Shown in pieces: positions 44,623 through 54,538 of a DNA stretch of 64,000 bases (position 1 is the stretch's first letter; the number at the start of each line of letters is the position of its first letter). This stretch comes from Chitinophaga pinensis (GTDB lineage: Bacteria; Bacteroidota; Bacteroidia; Bacteroidales; GCA-2748055), in contig CAMAZH010000007.1 of assembly GCA_945863035.1 (NCBI GenBank), positions 1-64,000 on the forward strand, given 5' to 3'. The notes under the pieces are model-generated. The model was given only the letters and a program-made list of their open reading frames with translations. It searched no databases and had not been told where the DNA came from. A program made the translations under genes and the position numbers.

Positions 44623-46092
44623 ATGAATCTCACCTTTGACAATGTATTGCTAATAGGTTCATTGCTTTTGTTTGTCAGTTTGTTGGCAAGCCGAAGTGCA
44701 AAGTTTGGCATCCCGGCCCTTCTGTTGTTTCTCCTTGTGGGAATGCTGGCAGGTTCTGAAGGTCTGGGAGGGATTAATTTTTACGACCCTGCAATTGCAA
44801 AGTTCATCGGCTCGGTTGCTTTGAGTTTCATCCTTTTTTCCGGAGGACTCGAAACCCGTTGGACGGATATCAAACCTGTTCTATGGCAAGGTATAGCCTT
44901 GTCAACTCTAGGCGTGTTAATCACAGCTCTGACAATCGGTCTGCTGGTTACTACTTTCACTGATTTTTCTCTTCTCGAGGGATTATTACTGGGCGCCATT
45001 GTGTCGTCAACCGATGCGGCGGCTGTTTTCTCCATATTGCGCTCCAAGAGCATCGGGTTAAAAGGGAGAATAAGGCCCATCCTGGAGTTGGAAAGCGGAA
45101 GCAACGACCCCATGGCTTATTTCCTAACCATCGTGTTCACCTATTTGCTTGTGAACAAAGATGCCAGCTATGCTTCCCTTATACCCATGTTTTTTACCCA
45201 AATGGCCTTGGGTGGAATCATCGGCTATGTAATGGGTGTTGTAATGCACCGTGCAATCAACTGGATAAAACTTGAATTCGAAGGCTTGTATTCGGTTCTC
45301 CTGCTCACATTTGTTTTCTTTATTTTTTCGTTCACCGAATTTATTGGAGGAAATGCTTTTCTGGCTGTTTACATCTCAGCTTGTGTTCTGGGCAACCGCG
45401 ATTTCATTCACAAAAAGAGCTTGATCAAACATTTTGACGGAAACGCATGGATGATGCAGATAATACTATTTGTAACCCTTGGGCTTTTGGTTTTCCCCAG
45501 TCAGATCATTCCTCAAATAGGTTTGGGAATTTTGATTTCCCTGCTGCTGATTTTTGTTGCCAGGCCGATAAGCGTATTCATATCTCTGGCGTTTTTCAAA
45601 TTGGGAGCCCGCAAGAAATTCTTTATCTCATGGGTGGGACTGAGGGGTGCCGTGCCGATTGTGCTTGCCACCTTCCCCCTTACCGCGGGAATCGATAAGG
45701 CAAACACCATTTTCAACCTTGTGTTTTTCATTTCCCTTACCTCTGTGTTGATCCAGGGAACAAGCCTGCCCATGGTAGCCCGTTGGCTTAAACTGATTGT
45801 ACCTGTAAGCTTGAAAAAACAATCTGTGCTGGATCTGGAACTTGCCTGGAAAACCAAATCCATTTTCCGAACGGTCCATATCGATTCGGATTTTAGCTGT
45901 GTCGGCAAATCCATTGTTGATTTGGGCTTGCCAAACTCCATTATCATTGCATTGATCGAAAGAAATAACAAGTTTTTCATTTCCGACGGATCAACCAAAC
46001 TGATGAAAGGCGACAGCCTTTATATTATGGCCGATGATGTGAATGCAATTGAAAAACTGTACACTTGTATTGGGAAGCATGTTGAAGTATGA
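44623..46092 (+). CDS. K+/H+ antiporter, CvrA/NhaP2-type CPA1 with TrkA-C-like tail
   Basis: Multi-TM; SSTDAAAVFSILRSKSIGLKGRIRPILELESGSNDPMAYFLT; VGLRGAVPIVLATFPLTAGI; C-terminal regulatory tail. Confidence 0.93.
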   Translation: MNLTFDNVLLIGSLLLFVSLLASRSAKFGIPALLLFLLVGMLAGSEGLGGINFYDPAIAKFIGSVALSFILFSGGLETRWTDIKPVLWQGIALSTLGVLITALTIGLLVTTFTDFSLLEGLLLGAIVSSTDAAAVFSILRSKSIGLKGRIRPILELESGSNDPMAYFLTIVFTYLLVNKDASYASLIPMFFTQMALGGIIGYVMGVVMHRAINWIKLEFEGLYSVLLLTFVFFIFSFTEFIGGNAFLAVYISACVLGNRDFIHKKSLIKHFDGNAWMMQIILFVTLGLLVFPSQIIPQIGLGILISLLLIFVARPISVFISLAFFKLGARKKFFISWVGLRGAVPIVLATFPLTAGIDKANTIFNLVFFISLTSVLIQGTSLPMVARWLKLIVPVSLKKQSVLDLELAWKTKSIFRTVHIDSDFSCVGKSIVDLGLPNSIIIALIERNNKFFISDGSTKLMKGDSLYIMADDVNAIEKLYTCIGKHVEV

Positions 46093-46116: not shown

Positions 46117-46665
46117 ATGACTGGAAAATCTTGTATAATTATCACCGGGGCGTTTTTAGCTACCTCGCTTTTTACCGGGTGCATCGAGGATACCCCTTCA
46201 CCAATAACTGTTCCAAGCCATACGGAATTTGATGCGAGCAACTTCCTTTTAAAGGAGAACAACAGCATCAAAAAGGTTCGCGGACAGGTTTTGTATTTAC
46301 CAATCTATTCCAACGTACCTTATTTTGAACACGACAAAAGCTATGATCTGAGCGCCTTTATAGCAATTCATAATACCGATCTGTTTAATACCATGAAAAT
46401 CACAAAGGTTCTCTTCTTTGATAATGATGGTAAACTTGTGGCCGATTACCTCGAAAAGGAGACCATTCTTTTACCCTTGGCGGCAACAAATTATTTTGTC
46501 CCGGAAAAAGATAACAGCGGTACCGGAGCTAATTTTATTGTAGAATGGGTTTCCGACTCATTGATAAATGAACCTTTAATAGAATCTGTAATGGTTGGTT
46601 TGAAGTTTAATCAGGGCGTATCCTTTTTAAGTAGCGGAAGAATCATGAGGGAGATTACCAACTGA
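46117..46665 (+). CDS. DUF3124-like lipoprotein
   Basis: Lipobox ATSLFTGC; VRGQVLYLPIYSNVPYFEHDKSYDLSAFIAIHNTD pattern. Confidence 0.8.
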   Translation: MTGKSCIIITGAFLATSLFTGCIEDTPSPITVPSHTEFDASNFLLKENNSIKKVRGQVLYLPIYSNVPYFEHDKSYDLSAFIAIHNTDLFNTMKITKVLFFDNDGKLVADYLEKETILLPLAATNYFVPEKDNSGTGANFIVEWVSDSLINEPLIESVMVGLKFNQGVSFLSSGRIMREITN

Positions 46666-46878
46666 TCGACACTGCACCGATTCATCAAAATCATTGTTGG
46701 TTTTGTAAGGACTCACAAAGGAGTTGAATGGGTAAGAATTTATTTTATAATATGAAAAAATTGGCATTCTGAAATTTGACAAGCAACACAAATCAATTTG
46801 GAACATTTGATTCTTTAAGTGTTTTCCAAACTTGTACCAAATATTTTACACATAAGAAAACCGGTTATAAGCTCGAAA

Positions 46879-48945
46879 ATGATTAAACGGAAACGGATAC
46901 ATTTTACCCATGCTGTTTTTATGTTGTACGGGTATGCAAAATCAAGAATTCTTGAACAATTGCGATCCGTTTCATTTATAATTATTTACTTGATTTTTTT
47001 TCAGGTTGTTATTCTAAGAGTTCCATTGGCTAATGCTTTTGGCACCGCTGGGGGTATCTCTCTGGTGATTTTCGGACTTGCATTCTTTTTGGAAGGACTG
47101 ATACTAGGTTTAATGCCTTTGGGAGAGAGGGTTGGCGTCAAACTGCCCAACAAGGTTGGCATTATACTTATTGCCTTATTCGGGCTCCTGCTGGGTTTTG
47201 GCGCAACTTATGCTGAACCTGCCATAAGTGCATTGCGAACCGCCGGCTCCACAGTAACGGCATGGGATTCCCCTCTTTTGTTCATGTTATTGGAGCGTAA
47301 TGCCGATATGCTTGTTTTTTCAGTTGGGATTGGTGTGGGTGTGGCTGTTGCGTTGGGAATGTTCAGGTTTTACTACAACTGGTCGATCAAACCCATTATT
47401 CTTATCCTGATTCCAATGCTCTTGGTTATAACCGTTGCAGTAAGTCTCAACGAGAATACATCAAAACTGATAGGTCTGGCTTGGGATTGCGGCGCAGTTA
47501 CAACGGGTGCAGTAACCGTTCCATTGGTTCTGGCTTTGGGAATTGGTGTATCCAGAGCGTCCAATAAAGGAAAGGGTTCAAGCGGAGGATTTGGAATAAT
47601 TCTCCTTGCATCTGCCTTTCCGGTTCTCAGCGTGCTAATATTGGGTATCGTTCTAAATTTCAGCACCCCTTTGCCTACCTCGGAAAGCGAATTCTTCTCT
47701 CATGCTTCCCGGGAAAAAAGCCTGTTGCTATTTGATAATGAAGAGCATCTTTTAAAACATGCCTTTACTCATGGCAGCGAAGATGGTCGCAGGGCATACT
47801 TTTCAGACAGTGCAGCATATGCAAAGGCAATAAATTCACTACAGGACAGTTCCTCTGCAAGGCTTGCTCTCCTGGGGAATATGCCGATTTCAAAATGGAT
47901 AATTCAAAGAGCCTCCGAACATGAGCGCGATGTCCTGGCTACAGTTAATCTGTCCAAAATTGAAAATTCCGATTCCTTGTCTTTTGGAAAAACCCTTCTG
48001 CAAGAATCCTCCAATGGCCTTCGGGCAGTTATCCCTTTAACCCTTTTGCTTCTGCTGGTCCTCATCGTTTTTCTGAAAGAGAAACTCAGGTATAAAGATG
48101 AGATTGCCCTAGGCATTTTCTTTACCCTGATTGGAATGACACTGCTGACTTCAGGTATTCGGCTTGGGTTAGCCTCACTGGGAAGCGAAGTTGGTGCCCA
48201 GCTCCCACGTGCATTTGCAAGTGAGGAGAAATTTGCCAACCGAATGGTTATCAATAATTTTGACACTTTGATTCTTTATAAAGGGATATCAGCTGACGGG
48301 ACACAAAGAGCCTTTTTCAACATGATAGAGAATGATGAGATAACCCGCATTGAATTCAAGGAGGATCAGTATGATCCGAAAATGCTGAGCTACGAACATA
48401 TAATTAACTCAAAACCCTTATTTGGCAGCAGGCTTACTGCGCTGGGCATTGCACTTGTTCTGTTTTTCGCCTTTGGTATGGGCTACGGGGCCACTCTTGC
48501 GGAACCCGCATTAAATGCCCTTGGAATGACGGTTGAAGGCTTGACGGTTGGGACCATAAAACGGACTCAGATTGTGCAGGTAGTCTCGGTAGGGGTTGGC
48601 ATCGGAATCGCCCTGGGCCTGTCGAGGATCTTATTCGATTTTCCACTTTTATGGCTTATCGTCCCATCCTACCTTCTCCTTATTCCACTAACAATTTGGA
48701 GCGAGGAAGAATTCACAGCCATTGCATGGGATAGTGGCGGAGTAACCACCGGACCGGTTACTGTTCCTTTGGTTTTGGCAATGGGACTTAGTATCGGGGG
48801 TGAATTAAACATCGTTGACGGTTTTGGAGTTCTCGCCTTGGCTTCGGCGCTTCCCATCATCACCGTGCTTTTGTTTGGCTTATACACCCGCTCAAATCAG
48901 AGACGTTCTATTCAGAAAAGAATAAAGGCAGATGCAAATGGCTAA
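46879..48945 (+). CDS. DUF1538 integral membrane protein (two homologous halves); ORF extends to 46819
   Basis: Multi-TM; duplicated motifs GATYAEPAISAL/GATLAEPALNAL and AWDCGAVTTGAVTVPLVLALG/AWDSGGVTTGPVTVPLVLAMG. Confidence 0.9.
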   Translation: MIKRKRIHFTHAVFMLYGYAKSRILEQLRSVSFIIIYLIFFQVVILRVPLANAFGTAGGISLVIFGLAFFLEGLILGLMPLGERVGVKLPNKVGIILIALFGLLLGFGATYAEPAISALRTAGSTVTAWDSPLLFMLLERNADMLVFSVGIGVGVAVALGMFRFYYNWSIKPIILILIPMLLVITVAVSLNENTSKLIGLAWDCGAVTTGAVTVPLVLALGIGVSRASNKGKGSSGGFGIILLASAFPVLSVLILGIVLNFSTPLPTSESEFFSHASREKSLLLFDNEEHLLKHAFTHGSEDGRRAYFSDSAAYAKAINSLQDSSSARLALLGNMPISKWIIQRASEHERDVLATVNLSKIENSDSLSFGKTLLQESSNGLRAVIPLTLLLLLVLIVFLKEKLRYKDEIALGIFFTLIGMTLLTSGIRLGLASLGSEVGAQLPRAFASEEKFANRMVINNFDTLILYKGISADGTQRAFFNMIENDEITRIEFKEDQYDPKMLSYEHIINSKPLFGSRLTALGIALVLFFAFGMGYGATLAEPALNALGMTVEGLTVGTIKRTQIVQVVSVGVGIGIALGLSRILFDFPLLWLIVPSYLLLIPLTIWSEEEFTAIAWDSGGVTTGPVTVPLVLAMGLSIGGELNIVDGFGVLALASALPIITVLLFGLYTRSNQRRSIQKRIKADANG

Positions 48946-50143
48946 CGAAAAACGAAACATAAACAAGGTTTTTTCCCCATCAAGAACCGTTTGGAGAACG
49001 CAGATGGAAAAAGGCATTTTCACTCCTCACAGAGTTAGCCGGATAACCTGCATCATAAACCAGCTTCTAAACGATAATATTATTCGTTTCCTCGAACAGC
49101 TAGGTGTAATAGTGTATTCGGAAAGCGGCAGAAGTGTTCGGGAAATCGTGAAACCCCGGCCCTTTGGTCTGCCATGAGAAATAATTCGCCTCCAAGATTC
49201 ACCCGTAAACGTTCTGCGTTTTACTGTTCCCAGAGAAACATCAAAAAAAGTAATTGAAGCGATAATTGATGTGGCAGAACTTCATATTCCGGGCCGCGGA
49301 ACAGTATTCTCACAGGATCTAATGGAGTTCACAAAAGTACCCCCTGTTATTAATCCTGAGGCATTATCATCAATAAAGACAACGGATCATAAAGAAAAAA
49401 TTCTTCATAATCTTGCCTATGTAATTTGCGTACTTTCGATTCCTGGAAGCAGCGAAAACCTTGCGAAAATAGCACTTGACCTTGGTATTTGTGTGCCCTT
49501 CGTCACAATTGGAACAGGAAATCACACACGCGACCAACTCGGGCTCATACGAATTACCATATCCCCCGAGAAAGAAATTGTGCACCTTGTAATGCCGGAG
49601 CACGACTCCGACAGTATAGTCAGGCTGCTCATCGAGCAGGGACGACTCGACCGGCCAGGCAGAGGGTTTATATATAACACCCCTGTTACCATGGGGCTCT
49701 TGGATACCCGACTGAAAATCGGAAAACAGAAGTATGCTGCCAGTCTGGAACAAATAATCGCAGCGATCGACCAACTCAAATCAGGAACCAGTTGGAGAAA
49801 AAGACTGGATACCGAAAGCAAGAACCGTTTCACGGGGAAATCAATCCTGCCACAGGATAATTGCGAAGTATCCATTATTTCCGACGAAGACAGGATCGAC
49901 ATCCTGAGAGAGGCATGCCTGAAAGTTGGAGCTACCGGTGCAACAACCTCAAGATTGTCGCCCCATGTCTCAGGAAATGGCAAGGAAGTCGCATCTGCCA
50001 TGATTCGCAGCGCCATAAGCGTGCCTGCTGAACTTACCAACAGCGTAGTGGACGAACTGCTTAAAATCAGCACGATAAAGGATCATGAAACCGATAGGAT
50101 ACATGTATTGGATTCGCCTTCAGCCTACGTGCACCCAATTTAA
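48938..50143 (+). pseudogene. P-II-like nitrogen regulator with three P-II-like domains, interrupted by in-frame TGA at 49175-49177
   Basis: Track ORFs 48932-49177 and 49271-50143 share a frame; the intervening bases translate as EIIRLQDSPVNVLRFTVPRETSKKVIEAIIDVAELHIPGRGTVFSQD with no other stop. Confidence 0.85.
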
Positions 50144-52765: not shown

Positions 52766-54538
52766 ATGGGAAAAACTTTTGTCGAGAAGATACTTGATGC
52801 GCCCGAAGGGGCAATCGTATTTCGCAAACCAGACATCCTGCTTACTCACGATAACACCGCCAGCATCAACAAAACCTTTCAGCAGATGAAAGGGCAAAAT
52901 GTGCTGCATCCTGAACAGCTTCTGATTGTTCTGGATCACAATGCTCCCCCCACCAATGCCAAGCTGGCTAACGATTACCAGGCAATACGCGACTTCGTTG
53001 CAAAACAGGGAATCAAAAACTTTTACGATGCAGGTCGTGGTATTTGCCACCAGATCATGTCGTATCACGCCAAACCCGCAATGATTATTGTAGGCAGCGA
53101 CAGCCATACCTGCACCGCCGGAGCTTTTAACGCCCTCGCGGCGGGAATTGACCGTACAGAATCGGCCGGGATCTGGCGGCGGGGCGAAACCTGGTTCAGG
53201 GTTCCCGAGTCGATGAAAATAAACCTTACAGGAAAACTCAAAGCCGGGGTTTACGCAAAAGATCTCTCCTTATGGATCATTGGAATGCTGGGTGCCGATG
53301 GTGCCAACTATATGTCTATTGAGTTTCATGGCGAGGGAGTTGCCTCCCTCGAGATATCCGACCGGATGACGCTTGCCAACCTTGCATCTGAAATGGGAGC
53401 AAAAAATGCGGTCTTCCCCCCCGATGAAGTGCTGGCTGCTTTTTATGGGCGAAAGAAAGTCGATGGAATATGGGCAGATGCGGATGCGATTTACACCAAA
53501 GAATTCAACATCGATCTTGACTCGGTTTACCCACTTGTTGCAGCTCCCCACAATGTGGAGAACGTTCACTCTGTAAAGGAGGTAGAGGGCACACCGGTTC
53601 AGCAGGGACTTATTGGAACCTGCACCAATGGCAGGATTGAGGATCTGCGGATTGCAGCTGAGATCCTTGCCGATAAACCCGTTAAGGCCGGCTTTCAGCT
53701 AAATGTGATCCCGGCTTCCAAGGAAGTTTATCTGCAGGCTCTGAAGGAGGGTATTATTGAAACGCTGATGAATGCCGGAGCCAATGTACTGAGCTCGTCA
53801 TGCGGGCCCTGTTTGGGCACGGGACAGGGCATTCCTGCCGACGGACAAACCGTAATTTCAACGGCAAACCGCAACTTCCTGGGTCGCATGGGAAACGAAA
53901 AGTCTTCGATTTACCTGGCATCGCCCGCAACTGTGGCCTGGTCGGCCGTGATGGGAAAAATTACCGATCCCCGATTGGAAGGCTGCTCGGAGGTTTTCCC
54001 CTATACCCGCGAAGAGGCCCAGACTTTGAGTATCTCAGCTGACGACAATCGAAAAACCAACAAAGTATGGAACTACAAGGATGCCGATAACATGAACACC
54101 GATCAGATGTTCGCCGGAAACCTCACCTATAATGTTTTAAGTTCCGACGGCTCGGCCATCATGCCTCATCTTTTCATGGGATTTGATCCGAATTTCACGA
54201 AAAATGTGGAAGCAGGCGACATCATCATCGCTGGCGAGAATTTCGGCTGCGGCAGTTCGCGCGAGCATCCTTCTGTTGGACTTGCTTATGCCGGCGTCAA
54301 GGCGATAATCGTTAAATCGGTGAACCGTATCTTTTATCGTTCGTCAATCAATCAGGGATTGGCTCTGATCGTTTTTCCGGAGGCAGTTGACGCATACAAT
54401 TCGGGCGACAACGTGGAAATTGATTTCATGGGAGGCAAAATCACCATTGCCGACAAGTCCTATACTTTTGAACCCCTGCCGGATAAGCTAATGGAGATTA
54501 TCTCGAAAAAGGGGCTTGTGAACTGGATTGCGGGATAA
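52766..54538 (+). CDS. Fused LeuC-LeuD-type hydro-lyase (aconitase superfamily), substrate unknown
   Basis: VGSDSHTCTAGAFNALA, IGTCTNGRIEDLRIAAEIL, SSSCGPCLGTGQG Fe-S ligands; swivel domain GENFGCGSSREHPSVGLAYAGV. Confidence 0.92.
   Translation: MGKTFVEKILDAPEGAIVFRKPDILLTHDNTASINKTFQQMKGQNVLHPEQLLIVLDHNAPPTNAKLANDYQAIRDFVAKQGIKNFYDAGRGICHQIMSYHAKPAMIIVGSDSHTCTAGAFNALAAGIDRTESAGIWRRGETWFRVPESMKINLTGKLKAGVYAKDLSLWIIGMLGADGANYMSIEFHGEGVASLEISDRMTLANLASEMGAKNAVFPPDEVLAAFYGRKKVDGIWADADAIYTKEFNIDLDSVYPLVAAPHNVENVHSVKEVEGTPVQQGLIGTCTNGRIEDLRIAAEILADKPVKAGFQLNVIPASKEVYLQALKEGIIETLMNAGANVLSSSCGPCLGTGQGIPADGQTVISTANRNFLGRMGNEKSSIYLASPATVAWSAVMGKITDPRLEGCSEVFPYTREEAQTLSISADDNRKTNKVWNYKDADNMNTDQMFAGNLTYNVLSSDGSAIMPHLFMGFDPNFTKNVEAGDIIIAGENFGCGSSREHPSVGLAYAGVKAIIVKSVNRIFYRSSINQGLALIVFPEAVDAYNSGDNVEIDFMGGKITIADKSYTFEPLPDKLMEIISKKGLVNWIAG

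Follow-up and report, generated by a model that had tools for sequence, protein, structure and literature searches.

A single TGA at an invariant glycine codon interrupts a gene for a triple P-II-like protein that adjoins a fused DUF1538 transporter gene

A single in-frame TGA, at a position where every orthologue carries glycine, interrupts an otherwise intact gene for a protein with three tandem P-II-like domains, and we give a slight preference to its being a recent nonsense mutation or strain variant. The gene lies on the plus strand at 48938-50143 of the window (the whole 64-kb stretch of DNA that was analysed), with an alternative ATG at 48932, and its start at 48938 overlaps the stop of the preceding gene (46819-48945), which encodes a fused DUF1538 transporter. 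At 49169-49183 the sequence reads CTG CCA TGA GAA ATA, which places the TGA in frame at 49175-49177 on the plus strand (...KPRPFGLP*EIIRLQ...), with G as the base directly 3' of it. The frame is otherwise open and comprises 401 codons if the TGA, codon 80, is counted as a residue. It is followed by 321 sense codons, from 49178 up to the TAA at 50141-50143, an open stretch with a chance of about 2e-6 at the stop frequency of the window, and the read-through translation shares about 50-72% identity with full-length relatives. Homology to longer proteins throughout, together with the 321-codon open stretch, therefore indicates one gene split by one codon, and the claim of an earlier note on this DNA, that an in-frame TGA breaks an otherwise intact frame running to 50143, is borne out by sequence and translation alike.

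The orthologue set was obtained by a scan of genome contigs and by searches of relatives and of the order, and comprised 17 distinct orthologues from other Bacteroidota genomes, L013 being counted as a duplicate of L008. Each of the 17 is encoded by one continuous ORF of about 400 aa with no internal stop, and the residue aligned with the TGA (the invariant G80) is Gly in all of them, with TGA in none. Its codon is GGC, GGT, GGA or GGG in all 14 orthologues for which codons were read; L011, L019 and L022 were read as protein only. The earlier guess of a conserved glycine at the stop site has thus proved right, whereas conservation of the TGA itself, taken there as the sign of regulated readthrough, is found in 0 of the 17. 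Within the family, either gene of the locus is present only in this genome and in G008; a relative of the same genus, G001, lacks both the DUF1538 gene and the triple P-II-like gene, and the search for a second genome of the same species carrying the gene found none. In this assembly the gene is single copy, with no second intact copy, and no match to it was found in plasmids or viral contigs.

The part of the gene downstream of the TGA still evolves like a working protein, and purifying selection is intact on both sides of the stop. Downstream, 90 of the 93 residues invariant in 14 orthologues are kept, compared with 22 of 23 upstream in the same number of orthologues, and the differences from the nearest relatives fall mainly at third codon positions on either side. 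On a fixed tree, the terminal branch of this gene measures 0.26 substitutions per site downstream vs 0.35 upstream, representing 4.8% and 6.4% of tree length, respectively. When neutral substitution was simulated, a further stop arose at a median divergence of about 2% (2.3%) and, in 95% of runs, by about 10%. Since there is neither decay nor rate acceleration downstream, the stop must be young, absent from the cells or bypassed, and an old pseudogene is rejected on the same grounds.

The label 'P-II-like' given by the earlier note is correct but incomplete, because the protein has three tandem domains of this kind and its gene is paired with that of a fused DUF1538 (UmpAB-like) transporter. 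An AlphaFold2 model in which the TGA position was read as Gly (mean pLDDT 61, a modest confidence) shows three successive beta-alpha-beta-beta-alpha-beta units, and the top Foldseek matches of this model are GlnK/PII proteins with a target TM of up to 0.65, the best PDB match being C. glutamicum GlnK (6yc6). Domain 1 (residues ~28-134; 49019-49339, plus strand) is assigned by its predicted secondary structure, by the Foldseek matches to GlnK/PII and by an HMM match to single-domain P-II. Domain 2 (residues ~154-262; 49397-49723, plus strand) lies in a low-confidence region of the model and is assigned by profile matches to domain 1 (E 2.3e-6) and to single-domain P-II (E 4e-5), and domain 3 (residues ~305-398; 49850-50131, plus strand) by a Pfam P-II match (1.7e-5) and its beta-alpha-beta-beta-alpha-beta order. 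Searched as the full read-through protein, the sequence reaches 25.5 bits against Pfam P-II (PF00543; gathering score 25) in domain 3 only; all three domains also match single-domain P-II proteins of related loci, at least weakly. The stop falls between beta2 (59-72) and beta3 (81-98) of domain 1, in the T-loop region, a part of the model with low confidence (residues 67-86). The 5' ORF (48938-49177, plus strand) accordingly encodes a 79-residue product with beta1-alpha1-beta2 and part of the domain 1 T-loop only; half of domain 1 is absent from it, and domains 2 and 3 entirely.

According to the reading we slightly prefer, a single point change would have turned the invariant Gly codon of this regulator gene into TGA and, if real, would be a recent nonsense mutation, either fixed or one variant among others in the population that was sampled. 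RF2-type termination would then release a chain of 79 residues that ends within the T-loop region of domain 1; the resulting fragment would be unable to fold into even one P-II unit and presumably inactive, and the antiporter, if it is indeed controlled by this protein, would be left without its regulator. As in a recent nonsense pseudogene, the stop is unique to this lineage and the orthologues are intact. A base-calling or assembly error, with a living population that carries the intact gene and a TGA that is simply a wrong consensus base, is also a strong contender, of a probability somewhat short of even. It accords with an assembly that is fragmented (241 contigs, 92.5% complete) and probably derived from a metagenome, and with a substitution, a single G-to-T change from a Gly codon, that is one among 133 single-base changes able to create a stop in this gene. 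The remainder of the gene is free of decay, which fits a nonsense mutation and an error equally. The gene is, moreover, kept in every sampled genome of the order with the fused transporter as well as in G008. This suggests a needed gene whose true loss selection would oppose, and it tilts the balance towards a consensus error. Against an error stands the lack of any sign of a high error rate, as no other interrupted gene, that is, no other stop visibly splitting one gene, was recognised in the window; other same-frame pairs of long frames (e.g., at 54536 and 12722) look, partly by inference from the ORF lists, like gene boundaries or chance antisense frames. A literature search on stop codons in metagenome assemblies found nothing. 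Placing a recent nonsense mutation closely above a consensus error is a judgement. Both fit among the options that the earlier note had listed, whereas readthrough and a split protein, also on that list, are not supported; these two readings and a recoding of TGA hold jointly only a small share of the probability.

TGA is an ordinary terminator in this genome. Of the 39 ORFs in the window that reach 150 aa or more, 11 end in TGA, and most TGA-ended frames meet another in-frame stop within ~30 codons. RF1 is present, and no RF2 (prfB) gene turned up in the assembly, which is 92.5% complete; because RF2 occurs in G001 and in most genomes of the family, with sporadic absences in other assemblies too, its absence here is best read as, and probably is, an assembly gap. 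Programmed readthrough of the TGA as Gly, Trp or another residue, yielding a regulated mixture of 79-aa and 401-aa products, would agree with the intact downstream coding sequence and with the missing RF2, but we consider it very improbable given that TGA stands at this site in 0/17 orthologues, that no SelB scores above the cut-off, that RF2 is present in genomes of the family including G001, and that TGA serves as a normal terminator here. In a folding test of 49169-49248, the RNA following the stop proved no more structured than its shuffles (fold z = +1.13), and an RNA readthrough element was rejected. A selenoprotein was likewise rejected, since the best SelB match in the assembly, below the cut-off, is a 395-aa frame resembling EF-Tu, and the relatives have Gly, not Sec or Cys, at the site.

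Even less probable is a functional split, in which the 5' fragment and a 290-aa protein restarted at GTG would act together or apart. The GTG that the earlier note proposed for such a restart does exist in frame (codon 112; 49271-49273, plus strand), and its product would retain domains 2 and 3 whole while lacking most of domain 1. It is at best a doubtful start, however, lying 94 bases beyond the stop, a long way for termination-reinitiation, at a position where relatives show no conserved Val or Met; in addition, 49178-49270 would stay untranslated, yet this stretch encodes residues 81-111 with R94, F95 and R99, which are invariant in all orthologues and kept here. The least probable reading, in which TGA would have become a sense codon in this lineage (for Gly, as in code 25), could appeal to the missing RF2 and the aligned glycine, but a TGA-recoded genome is disfavoured by the common use of TGA as a terminator in the window, usually with another in-frame stop soon after, and by RF2 in same-genus G001 and other family genomes, sporadic lack of an RF2 match in several relatives being expected of incomplete assemblies. 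The stop should not be cited as readthrough. It is in itself an ordinary finding and matters little, being a sign either that the gene was lost recently or that a base is wrong.

The gene family matters somewhat more than its stop. The preceding gene (46819-48945, plus strand) is intact and its product meets the Pfam cut-off for DUF1538 (PF07556, 4.9e-105), with a UmpA-like N-terminal and a UmpB-like C-terminal half; against NCBIfam UmpA (1.3e-65, 221 of 490 bits) and UmpB (1.3e-42, 146 of 500 bits) it stays below both equivalog cut-offs. Across 393 genomes of the order, the long fused DUF1538 gene has a triple P-II-like gene beside it in 11 out of 11 genomes, and the remaining four genomes with strong DUF1538 matches carry two tandem DUF1538 genes. 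Such split pairs are followed directly by a gene for a 115-aa single-domain P-II protein in all three loci read (L036, L037 and L039). The strict pairing of fused DUF1538 and triple P-II-like genes implies a working relationship, and the P-II-like protein probably regulates the antiporter. In a further proposal, to which we give an even chance, the family represents a pseudo-trimeric P-II regulator on a single chain, which emerged together with the fusion of UmpA and UmpB and replaced the single-domain P-II encoded after split umpA-umpB. The pairing deserves a separate look: if a three-domain P-II is tied to a fused antiporter, it would become possible to study how sodium/proton exchange is controlled by P-II-type signalling, and whether a covalent P-II trimer permits three different binding sites. 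Literature on tandem P-II proteins, or on UmpAB together with P-II, did not turn up in the library that was searched.

Two further observations concern the surroundings of these loci. A second sodium/hydrogen exchanger gene (Na_H_Exchanger and TrkA_C) lies upstream of the DUF1538 gene at 44623-46092, with only a DUF3124 gene (46117-46665) between the two. In another genome, the region adjoining the L010 gene (G073:C54:4778-6702) has its DUF1538 matches in pieces, in different open frames of 504, 606 and 211 aa, suggesting a frameshift.

Compared with ordinary bacterial single-nonsense pseudogenes, the interrupted gene shares the one substitution to a stop in an otherwise conserved frame and differs in showing no further decay, so that the stop, if real, would be very recent. 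With the P-II signal proteins (GlnB/GlnK, PF00543) the family would have in common the predicted beta-alpha-beta-beta-alpha-beta fold, and it has in common a gene adjoining a transporter gene; whereas classical P-II assembles as a trimer from 110-residue chains, here three divergent domains are joined in one chain of ~400 aa with an extra N-terminal segment and linkers. The transporter, in turn, resembles UmpAB, the DUF1538 Na+(Li+,K+)/H+ antiporter of Halomonas zhaodongensis, described in a paper that does not mention P-II (PMC5484666), but unlike in Halomonas both halves are contained here in a single 708-aa protein.
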